Shown piece after piece: positions 45,640 to 52,940 of a stretch of 64,000 nt of DNA (its first letter is position 1; every line of letters begins with the position of its first letter). The notes beneath the pieces were generated by a model. That model saw nothing but the letters and a program-made list of their open reading frames with translations, did no database searches and was not told where the DNA came from. Both the position numbers and the translations under genes were made by a program. Origin of the DNA: Deltaproteobacteria bacterium (GTDB taxonomy: Bacteria; Myxococcota; B64-G9); NCBI GenBank assembly GCA_019314375.1, contig JAFCZJ010000015.1, positions 1 to 64,000 of the forward strand. Reading direction: 5' to 3'.

Positions 45640-48029
45640 CAAACCCTCTCTTCGTCGCACAGGCCTTCGATGGCCACCGCGGCCACATGGGCACCCAGGG
45701 TCAAGTGTAGAACACCTCGCCCCTCCAGCGCCACGGGCCCCGCCGAACTGGGACTTTGGTCCATGCCCAGACAAGCCACCGCCAGGGCGCATGCAGCAGC
45801 CGAGGCCGATCCAAACTCGCCCAAGCACTTCCGTGTCTCAAATCGCGGCAGGTCGTCGGCCAAGACCGCAAGCTGTTGCTGCGCCAGGCCTCGTTCCGCC
45901 GCGGGAATGTTCAGCCACAGGGCGCCAAACCGAGACCAGGGCAGGGCGGAGAACAAAGCCTCCCAGGCCTCGCCCTCCACCAGGCCCAGCAGTTCGATGG
46001 ATGCCCTGGCACCCTCCATTTCGGGCTGTAGGATCATCCCGCCACCGCCATCGGCCAAGGCACCCTCTCGCTCGGCCACGGATGCGTCCAGCCTGGACGA
46101 CAGGATTTCATGTCCTTCGTCAAAGCCCATTAGCCAGGCCCGCGTTTCGCCCACATCGGGCATCAACAGACCGGCTGCATACAGGGCCTGCTCGAAAGAC
46201 ACATCTCCTCCGGTCATGGTCACGTTGGCACCCCGCGCACCGGCGCGAAGGGCCAACATCCCGGCTGGCGCGTTGTGCACCGAGCCCACGAAATCCGTGG
46301 GGCTGGACAGGCGCTCCGGGTTATCGAACAAGCGCTTGAGAAAATCATGGGTCTCGCCCTGGGCACCCCAGGCCGTGCCCACGAATATCTGCCCCGGCCC
46401 GAGCTCACCATCGACCGCGGTCAAGCGCTGACCCAGCCCCATGGCCAGTCGGCCGATGCGCTTGACGCGGCGCAGGGCTCGCTTCGGCATGCCCTCAAGC
46501 AGGGCTTCGCCAACATAGCAACCGGCGCAGTCTTCGCCGGCCAGCATCCGTCGAAGACTTTCTTCTTCAAAACCCGCCCCGGTTAAAGCAGTGGCATGCC
46601 TCACAAACAGTCGAGGCAAGCCCGCTTTGCGCTCTGGGGGAGTCCCGAGGGGTGTATCCATCTTGCCCCAGATCAAAGAGGCGTTGTTGCCGCCAAAACC
46701 GAAGGAGTTGCTCATCACCTGCGAGAGGTCCATGGTCTTTGACGCCAGGAGGGGGGCCAGTCCCAGCGCGGGATCCACTGTAATGAGCCCCGCGTTGGCC
46801 GGTGCCTGTTGTCGCAGCAAGGCGTCAATGGCGATCACCGACTCCAAGGCCCCGGCAGCGGCCAAAGGATGCCCGGTCACCCCCTTGGTCGAAGAGACCG
46901 CCGGTGGATGTTGGGCGAACATCCGCAGAAAGGCCCGCGCTTCGGCCCGATCGTTGTCCGGCGTGCCCGTACCGTGCATGTTTACGTAGTCCACCTGTTC
47001 GGGCCGCAATCCCGCGTCATCAAGCGCCGCCTGCATGGCACTCAGGGCACCGTCCCCCTCCGGATGCGGCGCGGTGGCATGGTAGGCGTCGCAGGACAAG
47101 CCGGCGCCCGCCAACTTGGCCAGGGTCCTCGATGGAATCTCAGCCCCGGCATCCATCGCCTCCAAAAAGAGCATGGCTCCGGCTTCGGATACGGTCATGC
47201 CTGCCCTGTTTTCGTCCAAGGGCCTTGCTCCCTCGGCATCCACCAATTGGAGCATGTCAAAACCAAAATGCGTCATCCGACAAAGGCCGTCCGCGCCACC
47301 GGCCAAAACCTGGTTTGCCAGGCCTCGACGCAGCATTTCCAGAGCCAGCTTGATGGCCACGGCCGCCGAAGAACAAGCGGTGGATACGGTCAACACGGGC
47401 CCCTGGCAACGACTCGCTCGCGCGAGGGTCCAGGCAACCCCGCCGGTCGCGTGATCATTCAGCAGACCCGGATCAGAGATCAAGGCTTCTTCGTTTCGGG
47501 GCATGCCGCCCGTGCTCACACCGAGCACAATGGCGTCAGGCGGGACCTCCGCATGCTGCAGGGCTTGCCGCGCCGCGCTCAGGGCCAGTGCGTGGGTTCG
47601 AGACAATTCGTCTGCTTGCAGCCAAGCAGAGTAGCCCAGGGGTTTGGACCCACGCTTTCCAGCGGCGAACTGTGGCAATCTAGAAAAACAACCCCGGCCT
47701 TCGGCAAGTGCCTGACGCAAGGACGCGAGGTCCGGTCCGGTCGGACCGGCCACCCCCAGCCCGGTGACATAAACCGCCCGGGGCACCGACTCGATATACT
47801 CGGCCAGGCTGGCGAGAGACATCATGACCTTTTGACCGAGCTCTTTGTTGTCGATTTTGACGCCGTATTCCTGCTCGATCATGACCACAAGCTCAAGCAC
47901 GTCGATTGAGTCCAATCCCAGGCCCTCGCCGAACAGGGATTCATCGTCTTTGATTTGTTCCGGATCCACATCGGGCAGATCCAAAGTCTCGACCAGCTTG
48001 TGTTTGAGTTCCTGAATCAGGTCGCTCAT
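45639..48029 (-). CDS. ACP - beta-ketoacyl synthase - degenerate KS/chain-length-factor-like trifunctional fusion
   Basis: GEGLGLDSIDVLELVVMIEQEYGV (ACP); TVSTACSSAAVAIK, NMHGTGTPDND, SSTKGVTGHPLAAAGA (KS); second half with SVHNAPAGMLAL and GGDVSFEQAL resembling Ketoacyl-synt_2/CLF without a KS Cys nucleophile motif. Confidence 0.88.
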   Translation of the reverse strand: MSDLIQELKHKLVETLDLPDVDPEQIKDDESLFGEGLGLDSIDVLELVVMIEQEYGVKIDNKELGQKVMMSLASLAEYIESVPRAVYVTGLGVAGPTGPDLASLRQALAEGRGCFSRLPQFAAGKRGSKPLGYSAWLQADELSRTHALALSAARQALQHAEVPPDAIVLGVSTGGMPRNEEALISDPGLLNDHATGGVAWTLARASRCQGPVLTVSTACSSAAVAIKLALEMLRRGLANQVLAGGADGLCRMTHFGFDMLQLVDAEGARPLDENRAGMTVSEAGAMLFLEAMDAGAEIPSRTLAKLAGAGLSCDAYHATAPHPEGDGALSAMQAALDDAGLRPEQVDYVNMHGTGTPDNDRAEARAFLRMFAQHPPAVSSTKGVTGHPLAAAGALESVIAIDALLRQQAPANAGLITVDPALGLAPLLASKTMDLSQVMSNSFGFGGNNASLIWGKMDTPLGTPPERKAGLPRLFVRHATALTGAGFEEESLRRMLAGEDCAGCYVGEALLEGMPKRALRRVKRIGRLAMGLGQRLTAVDGELGPGQIFVGTAWGAQGETHDFLKRLFDNPERLSSPTDFVGSVHNAPAGMLALRAGARGANVTMTGGDVSFEQALYAAGLLMPDVGETRAWLMGFDEGHEILSSRLDASVAEREGALADGGGGMILQPEMEGARASIELLGLVEGEAWEALFSALPWSRFGALWLNIPAAERGLAQQQLAVLADDLPRFETRKCLGEFGSASAAACALAVACLGMDQSPSSAGPVALEGRGVLHLTLGAHVAAVAIEGLCDEERV

Positions 48030-49258
48030 GAGTGTGTACCTTGGCTTTCGCCTCGGCGCTTCCGGCCGGGCATGCTGCGCAATAGTTGCAGAAACAGTTT
48101 GCTCATCTTCAGCTCTTGGGACTCATCCCGATAGAAGTCACCCCAGGCCTGATCGAAGAGACGCTGCAGAGTGTCCACGCTCATCTGCTTGGGTTCATAC
48201 ACCACGTGACCCGCGTTGTAGTGCCGCCAGTCCCGATCGAAAATACGCCCCTCCCGCTCCAGGTGGTTGTATGCCTCGGTGTGGGGAAAAGGCGTCAGTA
48301 TTGTGAACTCGGCAAGATCCAGTTCCACGGTCAGAAGAAAATCGATGAAGCGCTTGGTGAAATCTTCCGTGTGATCATCAAGGCCCAAAAGGATGGTACC
48401 CTCCACGCCGATGCCGTGGTCATGATACATCTTGATGCGATCTTTGATCTTGTCCGAAATGTTGTAAACCGCATGGTAGACGTACCAACAACCCGCCTCC
48501 CGAGCCAGCTTGAGCACCTCCGAATCACAGGAGATCGGGTGGGAGACCCAATGCTTGCCGTGGCCGGCCAGACGGCGAAACAACTCCTTTTGGTACTCGA
48601 CGTTTTGCTCCAAGGAGTTGTCCACAATAAACATCAGGTCCGAACAGGAATCCACGTCGGCCAGCACTGATTCGATGGGCTTGATGCGATGCTGCCGACC
48701 GCCCAGGTAGGGCGTACAGCAGGGATAGCAATTGAAACGACAGCCCCGGCTGGTTTCCACGAGGTCCACCAGCTCCCAGTCCTTGTGGCTGTAATATTTC
48801 TTCTTGTCGTAAAGCTCGCGCCGAGGACGCGGCACTTGGGCGATATCCGGAAAACCCTCGCGTCGGTAAACCGGTTTCATCTGTCCAGTTTGAAAGTCGG
48901 CCAAGGCTTGCTCGATCAAGCCCTCGGCTTCGCCCACCACGATGCTGTCGGCGTGCTCTGCTGCCTCTTCCGGGCAAAGGCCCACATGCAGGCCCCCGAT
49001 CAAGACTTTCTTGCCGCGCGCCCGGAAGGCATGGGCCAACTCGTATGCACGAGGCGCCTGACAGGTCAGCATGATGGATAGACCCAAGACATCACAGTCC
49101 GAGTCCATGTCCACGGGCTGAACATTTTCGTCGCAGACTTCGACTTGCCAGCTCTCGTCAACGCAAGCCGCCGCCTGGATGGGTCCCAGGGGAGGTAGGT
49201 CGAAACGCGTTTGTCCAGGCAACTTGGGCCAAGATGGATAGATAATAAGCAGCTTCAT
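48026..49258 (-). CDS. B12-binding-domain radical SAM protein
   Basis: TSRGCRFNCYPCCTPYLGG (CxxxCxxC); N-terminal MKLLIIYPSWPK..PPLGPIQAAA; 4-nt overlap with ACP-KS-CLF gene. Confidence 0.9.
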   Translation of the reverse strand: MKLLIIYPSWPKLPGQTRFDLPPLGPIQAAACVDESWQVEVCDENVQPVDMDSDCDVLGLSIMLTCQAPRAYELAHAFRARGKKVLIGGLHVGLCPEEAAEHADSIVVGEAEGLIEQALADFQTGQMKPVYRREGFPDIAQVPRPRRELYDKKKYYSHKDWELVDLVETSRGCRFNCYPCCTPYLGGRQHRIKPIESVLADVDSCSDLMFIVDNSLEQNVEYQKELFRRLAGHGKHWVSHPISCDSEVLKLAREAGCWYVYHAVYNISDKIKDRIKMYHDHGIGVEGTILLGLDDHTEDFTKRFIDFLLTVELDLAEFTILTPFPHTEAYNHLEREGRIFDRDWRHYNAGHVVYEPKQMSVDTLQRLFDQAWGDFYRDESQELKMSKLFLQLLRSMPGRKRRGESQGTHS

Positions 49259-49331
49259 GCGGTTTTCCTACCAGCCCACTCCAAATGAGTCAAGCTTGAC
49301 ACCTGTGGATCCATTGGAAGAAACTAGCAGC

Positions 49332-49787
49332 ATGTTGGCAGACACGGACATCATCGAGACTTGTATCCCCCATCGCAAGCCCATGCGCCTGGTGGAGCGC
49401 CTGCTAACCAGTCAAGACGACCAGGCCACGGTGGAGAGCTTTGTCCGTCCTTATTGGCCAGGTGCCGCGGGGGGCTTTGCCGATCCCGTCCTGCTTATCG
49501 AGGTGGTGGCCCAGTCCGTCGCGGTTCTGGTTGGATGGCAACGCCGGCATGAAGAAAAAATGGGCGGTCGCGGCCTGCTGGTCGGCGTACGCAAGACCAA
49601 AATTCAATGTGATCAGCTTCGGGTGGGCGACAGGCTTCAAAGCCATGTAGAATTGCTATACAAAGTGGAAAACTACGCTGTTTACCAAGGCCAAGTGCTG
49701 GATGATGAAGGTCGTCTTTTGGCACAGGTGGAGCTACAGTCATACCGCCCGGATGACTTTCCTGGCGCCATTGAGGAAAATCCATGA
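49332..49787 (+). CDS. hotdog 3-hydroxyacyl-ACP dehydratase, FabZ-like (APE-type)
   Basis: IIETCIPHRKPMRLVERLL; start at MLADTDIIE. Confidence 0.8.
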   Translation: MLADTDIIETCIPHRKPMRLVERLLTSQDDQATVESFVRPYWPGAAGGFADPVLLIEVVAQSVAVLVGWQRRHEEKMGGRGLLVGVRKTKIQCDQLRVGDRLQSHVELLYKVENYAVYQGQVLDDEGRLLAQVELQSYRPDDFPGAIEENP

Positions 49788-50542
49788 ATGACAACAACAT
49801 GAACGACAACAGAAAGAGCTCTGCATTGATCACCGGCGGCGGGCGAGGCATCGGACGAGCCCTTTGCCTCGAGTTGGCCCAAGCAGGGCACCATGTGATC
49901 ATCAACTACTTAAGTCGGCAAGAAGATGCGGAAAAAACCCTTGAGCGGGTCCTGGCCGAAGGAGGCACCGGAGAAATCCTGGCCCTCGACGTCAGAGACG
50001 AGTCGGCCTGGAAAACCGCCATCGATGAACTCAGCCAGCGAGAAGAGGAAATCGGAGCCATCGAGATCCTCGTCAACAACGCCGGCGTCACCGATGACGG
50101 ACTCTTCCCCATGATGAAAGCGGAAGCCTGGAAGCGTGTCACCCGCACCAGCCTTGATGGTTTTTACAACGTCACCCGGCCGGTACTTAAGCGCATGATG
50201 CGAAAGCGACGAGGTTCAATCGTCACCATGGCCTCTGTTTCGGGCCTGGTGGCGAATCGGGGTCAGGTGAACTACTCGGCCGCCAAGGCCGGCCTCATCG
50301 GGGCAACCCGCTCTTTGGCCGCCGAGGTGGCCAGGCTCGGCATCCGGGTCAACGCCGTGGCCCCTGGACTGATCGAGACGGAGATGACGGCCGAGGTACC
50401 CAAGGAAATGATCAAACAACTCATCCCCTTGAACCGCTTCGGCAAGCCGGAAGAGGTGGCCAAAGTCGTGGCTTTTCTTTGCTCGGACGCAGCCTCTTAT
50501 GTCACGGGCCAAATCATCGGGGTCAACGGAGGCATGGCATGA
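49784..50542 (+). CDS. 3-oxoacyl-ACP reductase, FabG-like
   Basis: TGGGRGIGRALCLEL, LVNNAGVTDDGLF, YSAAKAGL, VAPGLIETEM. Confidence 0.95.
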   Translation: MNDNNMNDNRKSSALITGGGRGIGRALCLELAQAGHHVIINYLSRQEDAEKTLERVLAEGGTGEILALDVRDESAWKTAIDELSQREEEIGAIEILVNNAGVTDDGLFPMMKAEAWKRVTRTSLDGFYNVTRPVLKRMMRKRRGSIVTMASVSGLVANRGQVNYSAAKAGLIGATRSLAAEVARLGIRVNAVAPGLIETEMTAEVPKEMIKQLIPLNRFGKPEEVAKVVAFLCSDAASYVTGQIIGVNGGMA

Positions 50543-51174
50543 AAGACGCTCGCGCCTTGTTGGCGATTCTGCTGCTTTTCCTGCTGGCCGCTCCATCAGC
50601 CCAGGCGCAGTCCAACAAAGACTGGCGCGGAGACTTCCAATCTCTGCGCAAGGCCGGTGCCGCCCTCAAGTCGATCCAGGCGGACTTCACCCAGGAAAAA
50701 CAGCTTGCCATCCTGGCCAATCCACTCTTGTCCCAGGGGCGCCTCCTCTACCAGGCCCCCGACGCCCTGCGCTGGGAATACATAAAGCCCATGCCCAGTC
50801 TTCTGCTCCTCCATGGCAAAAAAGCCAGTCGTTTCAATCGAAAAGACGGTCGTTGGGTGCCCGACGCAGCCGAGCGGATCCAAGCGATGCGGCTGGTCCT
50901 TGAAGAAATCCGGCTTTGGCTTTCCGGTCGATACGAAGACAGCGGCGTTTTTACGACCGAGCTTGTAACCGAGCCCAGTCCAAGACTTCGCCTGACACCC
51001 AAATCGCCGGAGATGGCCAAGATAATCCAGGGTATTGTTCTTCATCTGGCCGAAAAACCGGGCCAACTGGAAAAAGTCGAAATCATTGAAGGCCCCAAGT
51101 CTAAAACCATCTTGACTTTTCACAACATCCAGACGGACAAACCCATAGAAAAGGGTTTGTTTTCAAAACCTTAA
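50539..51174 (+). CDS. LolA-like outer-membrane lipoprotein carrier (APE-type)
   Basis: Signal peptide; SIQADFTQEKQLAILANPLLSQGRLLYQAPDALRWEYIKP. Confidence 0.88.
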   Translation: MKDARALLAILLLFLLAAPSAQAQSNKDWRGDFQSLRKAGAALKSIQADFTQEKQLAILANPLLSQGRLLYQAPDALRWEYIKPMPSLLLLHGKKASRFNRKDGRWVPDAAERIQAMRLVLEEIRLWLSGRYEDSGVFTTELVTEPSPRLRLTPKSPEMAKIIQGIVLHLAEKPGQLEKVEIIEGPKSKTILTFHNIQTDKPIEKGLFSKP

Positions 51175-51182
51175 GCCAAAGC

Positions 51183-51833
51183 ATGCGCAGACGCGGCCTA
51201 TACCTATTGTTCTGCCTGGCCCTTGGCCTTGGATCTTGCAGCCACCTGCCGAATCTAAAACCCCTGGCGCCAGACATGAATTCGGAAAGCCTTGGGGCAA
51301 GTTGCCTGGCGCTTTTTCCCAAGCAGCCCCAGCGCCTTGTGCACCAAATCATGGCGGAACTTCCCATGAACCAACACAGCGCCATGCTTGGGGTGAGCCT
51401 CGTTTTTCCTGCCCGCCGGCATTTGCGGGCCGTTTTGCTCAGCGTGGAGGGGCTGACCCTCCTGGATGCAGAACGAAGTCCATCAGGCGATCGGGTCCAT
51501 CGGGCCATCGGTCCCATGGAAGACAAAGACTTCGCAAAGGGCTTGTTGGATGACGTGGAGTTGTTGTTGTTGGCCCCCCGAGGGGAAACCCGCTTCGGCC
51601 AGGTGGCGGGGCAAGCCACCTGCCGGACGCAAGTCGATGGCGGCGTGACAGACATTCGTTTTGACGGACAAAATTGGCATCTGAAGCGCTATGATGCCCA
51701 GGGTCGCCTGCTGCGATCCATCCAGGCCACCCACCAAAACGCCCAGATCAAAGCGCTCGGCCTGGGGGGCTACCTGCTCAAACTAAAACTCCAGTCCCAA
51801 GAAAACCTTGACCCGGGTTATAATCCCAGCTAG
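51183..51833 (+). CDS. DUF3261-like lipoprotein (APE-type)
   Basis: Lipobox LGLGSC; ILFD-type RFDGQNWHLKRYD pattern; position after LolA-like gene as in APE clusters. Confidence 0.7.
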   Translation: MRRRGLYLLFCLALGLGSCSHLPNLKPLAPDMNSESLGASCLALFPKQPQRLVHQIMAELPMNQHSAMLGVSLVFPARRHLRAVLLSVEGLTLLDAERSPSGDRVHRAIGPMEDKDFAKGLLDDVELLLLAPRGETRFGQVAGQATCRTQVDGGVTDIRFDGQNWHLKRYDAQGRLLRSIQATHQNAQIKALGLGGYLLKLKLQSQENLDPGYNPS

Positions 51834-51854
51834 CCTTATCCGTATGGATAAGGC
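51833..51854 (+). promoter_or_regulatory. hairpin GCCTTATCC-GTAT-GGATAAGGC overlapping the start codon of the RtcR-like gene
   Basis: Perfect 9-bp arms; ATG at 51844-51846 begins in the loop. Confidence 0.6.
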
Positions 51855-52536
51855 AATCATTATTGGACTTCTCGGCGAGACCCAAGACTGGGCACCAAAG
51901 AAGGAGAGATGGGATCGATGGCGCCCGACCGTGGCCTTGTGCATGCACAAGGACTGGCCCGTGCAAAGATTCTATCTCCTCCATGGGGCGACCCAGGCCA
52001 AGCTCTCAAAAAGACTATCGAAAGACATCGGGAAAGTAAGTCCGGCCACCAAAGTAAACCGTGTCGAATTGGCCGAAGGCTCAGAAGCCATCCATGATCA
52101 GTTTCTGGCATTATCCGACAAGATAAAATCAACATGGGTTCATGGCAACACGGGCCAGGCCACAATCCAGTCCCAGCTTCTTTCAAGCCTAATTAACGCC
52201 GGCAAGGCGAGTGGACTGGTCATCACGCAGGCCCCCGACGCCAAAATCCCATCCGTCAGCGGTCGTCTGCTGCGTTTCCCCTTCGAAGGACCCGTAAAAG
52301 CCGGCCAGGAACCCAAAGAAGCCGAAGCGGAACTACCGGATGGACTGGATGAATTCGATCGCTTCCAACTCGCGGGGGTCTTAAAAATCTGCCAAAGCAG
52401 CCCCAGTCTTTCGGAAGCCGGCCGCCGACTCTTCGCCCAAAGCCGTCAACGCAAGGCCAAACCAAACGACGCCGACCGCCTGCGAAAATACCTGGCCCGA
52501 TTCAAGCTGCGTTTTCAAGATCTCAAGTCCTCCTGA
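51844..52536 (+). CDS. truncated RtcR-like protein: N-terminal CARF-like sensor joined directly to RtcR C-terminal HTH, without the sigma-54 AAA+ domain
   Basis: IIIGLLGETQDW..RWDRWRPTVALCMHKDWPVQRFYLLHG...DIGKVSPATKV and TWVHGNTGQATIQ resemble RtcR N-terminus; DEFDRFQLAGVLKICQSSPSLSEAGRRLFAQSRQRKAKPNDADRLRKYLARF resembles RtcR C-terminus; no Walker A/B or GAFTGA. Confidence 0.8.
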   Translation: MDKAIIIGLLGETQDWAPKKERWDRWRPTVALCMHKDWPVQRFYLLHGATQAKLSKRLSKDIGKVSPATKVNRVELAEGSEAIHDQFLALSDKIKSTWVHGNTGQATIQSQLLSSLINAGKASGLVITQAPDAKIPSVSGRLLRFPFEGPVKAGQEPKEAEAELPDGLDEFDRFQLAGVLKICQSSPSLSEAGRRLFAQSRQRKAKPNDADRLRKYLARFKLRFQDLKSS

Positions 52537-52940
52537 GAACCCTGGGTCGCCTTTTCTTCCACAGACTCCGGCAGCCCCTCGGGACCCAGAAATTTTTCCA
52601 CGCCCCTGCGCGCCATCCAGCGATTAAAAGCCCCCGCATAACGCAGCACTTCCTTACCCGCCACCCAAAGGCCGGCAAGATAGATGATCCAGGAAAACCC
52701 ATAAATCGCCGGCCCGCCTATGAACCCAATCATCGCCTCATCAAAGTAAATCGCCAAGCCGGTCATCACCCCCACGGCCGGCCAACCCAGCAACATGCTG
52801 ATCGCCAACAAGCCCAAGCCAATAGCAAGCCGAAGATCCGGCCGATGCCGAAACATCTCCAAATCGGCCCGCTCTTCCACGGCCTTCCGCACAAAGCGAA
52901 GACGCAAAAGCCGAAGACCCAATTTACGCCGAAGACCCAA
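52515..52940 (-). CDS. small membrane protein (two TM segments)
   Basis: Hydrophobic segments LAIGLGLLAISMLLGWPAVGVMTGLAIYF and IYGFSWIIYLAGLWVAG. Confidence 0.6.
   Translation of the reverse strand: MGLRRKLGLRLLRLRFVRKAVEERADLEMFRHRPDLRLAIGLGLLAISMLLGWPAVGVMTGLAIYFDEAMIGFIGGPAIYGFSWIIYLAGLWVAGKEVLRYAGAFNRWMARRGVEKFLGPEGLPESVEEKATQGSQEDLRS

Follow-up and report, generated by a model that had tools for sequence, protein, structure and literature searches.

The mini-RtcR locus

The window analyzed here is a stretch of 64,000 nucleotides from the metagenome-derived genome of a Deltaproteobacteria bacterium (6.66 Mb, 97.6% complete, 5.8% contamination, 370 contigs). RtcR is a sigma-54 activator of rtcBA RNA repair. 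The window contains a gene for a short RtcR-like protein of 230 residues, which we refer to as mini-RtcR (Table 1). The gene lies where the first-pass annotation had placed it, and its reading frame is intact, with an ATG at 51844, a stop at 52536, a length of 693 bp and no frameshift.

Table 1. Positions of genes, domains and predicted operators at the mini-RtcR locus, numbered along the window
Feature	Position	Strand	Remarks
ApeP-like dehydratase, FabG-like reductase and LolA-like genes	49257-51174	+	Co-directional with mini-RtcR
Lipoprotein-like gene of the aryl-polyene-type cluster	51183-51833	+	No Pfam/NCBIfam match; mini-RtcR starts 10 bp downstream
RtcR-type operator 1 (predicted)	51833-51854		Perfect 9+9 palindrome GCCTTATCC-GTAT-GGATAAGGC over the start codon; core TTATC-N6-GATAA at 51836-51851
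Mini-RtcR, AAA+-less RtcR	51844-52536	+	Open reading frame; PF06956, NF038308
CARF-like domain, first half (residues 1-76)	51844-52071	+	Well kept
CARF-like domain, second half (residues 77-131)	52072-52236	+	Strongly diverged; predicted Rossmann-like elements persist
RtcR-type operator 2 (predicted)	52111-52126		In-gene, codons 90-95, TTATCCGACAAGATAA; also TTATC-N6-GATAA
Linker (residues 132-167)	52237-52344	+	Low confidence in model; in place of the ~250-residue AAA+ domain of full-length RtcR
RtcR C-terminal DNA-binding domain (residues 168-230)	52345-52533	+	Well kept
Convergent small gene, membrane-like by eye	52515-52940	-	No Pfam/NCBIfam match; kept beside the cluster in relatives

RtcR (PF06956) is the sole Pfam family assigned to mini-RtcR, covering residues 3-77 above its cut-off (E 3.8e-20). 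On the RtcR equivalog profile NF038308 the protein reaches 126.8 bits, far short of the equivalog cut-off of 650. The full-length RtcR of a same-family genome (G004) scores 786, and that of E. coli K-12 scores 848. Residues 161-229 align to positions 461-529 of this 530-position profile, and the annotated match of about 60 C-terminal residues to the end of RtcR is found at residues 168-227. Identity to E. coli RtcR is 39% at residues 1-76 and 58% at residues 160-228, with no significant match in between. No Pfam AAA+ family is found in mini-RtcR, and its alignment with full-length RtcR has a gap of ~250 residues, as expected from the annotated absence of the AAA+ sigma-54 activation domain. 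The predicted CARF fold is followed directly by the DNA-binding domain, which is called an HTH in the literature (PMC7790460). A frameshift concealing the AAA+ domain or the second half of the CARF-like domain was considered and rejected; the corresponding RtcR motifs are missing from the other frames.

Sequence comparison indicates that mini-RtcR arose from a full-length RtcR by loss of the central, sigma-54-activating AAA+ domain. Enhancer-binding proteins without this domain are established to be incapable of remodeling the sigma-54 polymerase (PMC9650030, PMC7790460). Because the domain is missing, mini-RtcR cannot remodel the polymerase and is unable to drive sigma-54, as the annotation had concluded.

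The surrounding genes form an aryl-polyene-type cluster, identified by ketosynthases, an aromatic amino-acid lyase, radical-SAM enzymes and an AMP ligase in addition to the genes in Table 1. The earlier description of mini-RtcR as co-directional with lipid and pigment genes thus holds. The ApeP-like, FabG-like and LolA-like genes and mini-RtcR are probably one operon. The lipoprotein-like gene between them is one that we take to be DUF3261-like. No cas genes are present among 19 neighboring genes scanned with Pfam.

Homologues of the lipoprotein gene adjoin a LolA-like gene in five same-family genomes, and none of the five has an RtcR-like gene at that position. In one genome of the comparison (G008) the lipoprotein gene directly adjoins the convergent small gene. 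Since same-family genomes keep the cluster without an RtcR-like gene, the mini-RtcR gene seems to have been inserted or acquired in the host lineage. In another related genome (G006) the place next to the lipoprotein gene is taken by a stand-alone archaeal-type threonyl-tRNA editing domain (L094:870-1274, PF08915, E 7e-35). The B12-binding radical-SAM gene of the cluster (window positions 48026-49258) has homologues in the same cluster of relatives, with identities of 48% (L093) and 72% (L096).

Mini-RtcR is the only RtcR-type gene in the host genome. It is not adjacent to rtcBA: rtcB is present on another contig and rtcA was not detected in the genome, consistent with the annotation, which had seen neither gene in the window. 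A detached RtcR AAA+ domain acting in trans was also considered. The genome has 35 sigma-54 AAA+ matches, which are at most 44% identical to the domain of the full-length RtcR in G004 and belong to ordinary enhancer-binding proteins, and this candidate was rejected.

Conservation of the DNA-binding domain and divergence of the sensor

We compared mini-RtcR with 67 full-length RtcRs, defining a near-invariant column as one with a single residue in at least 95% of them. In the first half of the CARF-like domain 14 of 16 such columns are retained. In the second half (to residue 131) only 5 of 23 are retained and 18 are lost. As a control, each full-length RtcR was left out in turn, and each retains at least 91% of the near-invariant columns in this half. 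The DNA-binding domain retains 26 of 27, with 22 of 63 compared positions off the consensus (hypergeometric P 3e-6). The difference between this domain and the second CARF half is highly significant (Fisher P 3e-8).

The annotated RtcR likeness of the N-terminal ~135 residues is strong to about residue 76. Residues 78-131 show only ~20% identity to full-length RtcRs. The RtcR motifs ITTGTH and DPWDFEEVY are lost, and the annotated HGNTGQATIQ is a weak echo of VHITTGTHVxQI. Among full-length RtcRs, conservation is higher in the second CARF half (about 65% identity) than in the first (50%); in mini-RtcR this order is reversed (20% vs 38% identity to full-length RtcRs). The reversal argues against a recent deletion or a misassembly, and suggests long-standing selection on DNA binding and altered demands on the sensor, although some of the divergence may be older than the loss of the AAA+ domain. 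Together, the residue patterns suggest that DNA binding stayed under selection once the remainder of the protein was released.

Phylogenetic analysis placed mini-RtcR nearest to an RtcR from a Myxococcales metagenome-assembled genome (L005), with weak support (0.74). Its terminal branch is the longest in the tree (0.76, compared to at most 0.51 for the others).

Predicted structure

The AlphaFold model of mini-RtcR (mean pLDDT 66) arranges strands and helices in a Rossmann-like order. The pLDDT is about 80-95 in the first CARF half and mostly below 50 in the linker. CARF proteins are the top matches to this model in a Foldseek search of the PDB (Csm6 and Card1, with Can2, VC1899 and Csa3 lower), in line with the CARF-like domain that the annotation had proposed. 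The alignment used for the model included CARF rows of RtcR, which pushes it toward a CARF fold. A CARF-like fold is predicted to be kept in mini-RtcR. The isolated C-terminal fragment is predicted to be helical, with helices at positions 3-18, 22-30 and 42-52 of the fragment; the structural search with this model gave no PDB match.

Predicted RtcR-type operators

The operator motif was inferred from sequence, and was derived from other rtcR loci before the window was scanned. Leaders of full-length rtcR genes are enriched in TTAT-N8-ATAA dyads, which occur in 34 of 39 loci within 80 bp of the start codon and at 20-45 bp upstream of it (for example L036:4551-4566 and L024:4576-4591). Elsewhere the dyad occurs only 3 times in 377 kb. 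A related TATC-N6-GATAA is found in most Myxococcus-type rtcR leaders examined, and the E. coli rtcR leader carries TAT-N8-ATA. Most full-length loci also have a divergent match to a sigma-54-type TGGCAC/TTGC element beyond the leader. We found no published RtcR footprint in the literature.

The window has exactly two TTAT-N8-ATAA sites (0.12 expected), and both are in the mini-RtcR gene. The second site lies 275 bp from the first and 267 bp into the reading frame. The stricter TTATC-N6-GATAA has four exact sites in the 6.66 Mb genome, and two of the four are in this gene. A relaxed form occurs 9 times genome-wide compared to 12 times for a reversed control. The motif itself is therefore at background level, and the pair within the 693-bp gene is the exception. 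We estimate the chance of two strict sites in the gene, with about two others in 6.66 Mb, to be near 2e-8. A matrix trained on rtcR leaders gave the two sites the highest scores of the window (20.5 and 13.0; the next scored 7.5). The start-codon site, at 13.0, scores lower than any training leader (lowest, 16.6) but higher than every Myxococcus-type leader examined (highest, 8.1). No counterpart of the in-gene site is present in the full-length rtcR coding sequences examined, which argues that it is not a plain leftover.

The two other strict sites in the genome fall within unrelated coding sequences, close to gene starts. Their number matches chance, and a regulon defined by the strict operator was rejected. 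The scan gave no operator at the main promoters of the pigment genes, and none near the divergent start at 49.26 kb. The region upstream of rtcB has neither an operator nor, by eye, a clear sigma-54 site.

As RNA, the palindrome at the start codon also forms a hairpin that surrounds the AUG (region z-score -2.7). It could act at the RNA level, a separate possibility that leaves the second site unexplained.

Search for further short forms

The annotation had suggested a search for homologues of about 230 residues lacking AAA+. It returned none among the matches listed for genomes of the phylum (inferred to be Myxococcota), in a species-wide collection of loci or in viral contigs. RtcR matches are present in 75 of 194 other genomes of the phylum. 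Among the matches listed, which cover all but the weakest, there is no short form; the two ends are at full-length spacing or wider. The sole wide-spacing case examined (G055, L102:1682-3004) is a full-length rtcR broken at GAFTGA by a transposase gene (UPF0236/ISL3-like), and was rejected as a short form.

No short form is present among 44 loci of the species-wide collection, in which genes not cut by contig ends or frameshifted are full length, apart from one fragment. That fragment (L045:716-976), from a Verrucomicrobiales metagenome-assembled genome, is an 87-residue frame with the RtcR DNA-binding domain alone, fused to unrelated sequence. It is either a remnant or a chimera. Contiguous-looking matches to residues 85-227 in Oxalobacteraceae were rejected, being full-length RtcRs of 540 residues. 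The RtcR matches in viral contigs are full-length, cut off or fragmentary, and phage records gave partial matches. A plasmid record covers the whole query, but its two matching pieces are spread across about 1.6 kb, as long as a full-length gene, and it was rejected as well. The short form is a singleton, with one copy among the RtcR genes checked (75 genomes of the phylum and about 40 loci elsewhere).

Discussion

On balance, the sequence analysis leads us to lean toward mini-RtcR being a descendant of RtcR that no longer drives sigma-54 and acts as an operator-binding autorepressor inside the aryl-polyene-type cluster. Autorepression is the simplest working model because the recognition domain is preserved and two RtcR-type operators are located at and in the gene itself. 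After loss of the central AAA+ domain from a full-length ancestor, the C-terminal domain would have continued to bind the ancestral RtcR operator. Mini-RtcR would occupy the start-codon palindrome and the second site in its own frame, lowering its own expression and read-through from the upstream operon. Bound at the start codon, it would block a local promoter as well as the read-through. Repression may come from a roadblock, or from a DNA loop that joins the two sites. Dimerization may now be the main role of the CARF-like domain, or the domain may sense something besides the RtcR ligand. DNA binding, repression, dimerization and any effect on the pigment genes are what we infer for mini-RtcR. 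Counted against the autorepressor model is the lack of any short-form homologue in our searches. Further points against it are that the operator motif comes from sequence and our literature search gave no RtcR footprint, that the start-codon site scores below the training leaders and might work as an RNA hairpin, that the main pigment promoters carry no operator, and that the DNA-binding fragment had no PDB match.

A more specific history is put forward tentatively, as a possibility only. A sigma-54 enhancer-binding protein may have become a compact CARF-HTH repressor by losing AAA+, with the ancestral enhancer site turned into the start-codon operator, a second operator gained in the gene, and an RNA-repair-type sensor fold coupled to a pigment operon. 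If true, this would clearly exemplify a sigma-54 activator that has lost its motor and kept its DNA-binding domain and operator. Energy-driven activation would have given way to simple binding of an operator, and the sequence would bear evidence of both partners.

The main rival, which we consider rather unlikely, is that mini-RtcR is a fading remnant with no regulatory role now, and the operators are passive leftovers. The singleton status, the stripped second CARF half and the longest terminal branch are consistent with decay, as are the apparent absence of rtcA from the host genome and the existence elsewhere of an HTH-only frame (L045) and a transposon-broken rtcR (L102). However, the frame is intact, the DNA-binding core is almost unchanged despite far divergence elsewhere, and the in-gene operator has no counterpart in the full-length coding sequences examined.

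The first-pass annotation had proposed a ligand-sensing repressor. The repressor part gains support from the operators; conserved ligand sensing is doubtful because the second CARF half has lost most of its near-invariant residues, even though a CARF-like fold is predicted. A ligand-sensing CARF-HTH regulator with a Csa3-like layout, responding to an RNA fragment or other nucleotide and controlling the pigment cluster, is improbable in our estimate. The conserved first CARF half, the modeled CARF fold, whose PDB matches include Csm6, Card1, VC1899 and Csa3, and the position within the cluster would suit such a regulator. The loss of ITTGTH and DPWDFEEVY, the lack of an operator near the divergent 49.26-kb start and the retention of the cluster in related genomes without mini-RtcR do not.

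The annotated dominant-negative role, poisoning hexamers of full-length RtcR, has a parallel in the repression in vitro of CARF-less RtcR by the RtcR CARF in trans (PMC9650030), but is very improbable in a host genome that has no full-length RtcR and no RtcR-like AAA+. An artefact of assembly or binning is equally hard to credit: the 370 contigs, the 5.8% contamination and the singleton status would allow it, but the second CARF half is itself diverged, which is not expected from a joining error, the frame is intact, and the cluster genes have orthologues within the same family.

PrrA/RegA/ActR-type regulators have a receiver joined directly to a Fis-type HTH. They share with mini-RtcR an NtrC-like layout without the AAA+ motor, and differ in carrying a receiver in place of CARF. 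VfmH was rejected as a precedent for the AAA+-less form since it retains AAA+. Csa3 and other CARF-wHTH regulators (PMC4012209) likewise have a CARF-like sensor joined to a DNA-binding domain with no enzyme in between. Unlike them, mini-RtcR derives from RtcR, carries its C-terminal domain and has no tie to CRISPR-Cas as far as examined. CARF-AAA+-HTH homologues of RtcR have been linked to restriction systems and CoCoNuTs (PMC4012209, PMC11090510). In these, as in mini-RtcR, an RtcR-like CARF was recruited to a non-rtc locus; unlike mini-RtcR, they are associated with defence genes and are described as retaining the ATPase. Compared to RtcR itself, mini-RtcR shares the first CARF half, the C-terminal domain and the type of operator before the gene. 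It differs in lacking AAA+ and an rtcBA neighbor, in its degraded second CARF half, and in an operator moved onto the start codon with a second one inside the gene.

The leader operator in 34 of 39 loci suggests that ordinary RtcR also regulates itself, and offers a testable RtcR binding site. We found no description of such an operator or of self-regulation in the literature searched. Three related loci (L029, L030 and L039) carry a second TTAT-N8-ATAA at a nearly equal distance of ~378 bp upstream of rtcR, perhaps as a looping partner.
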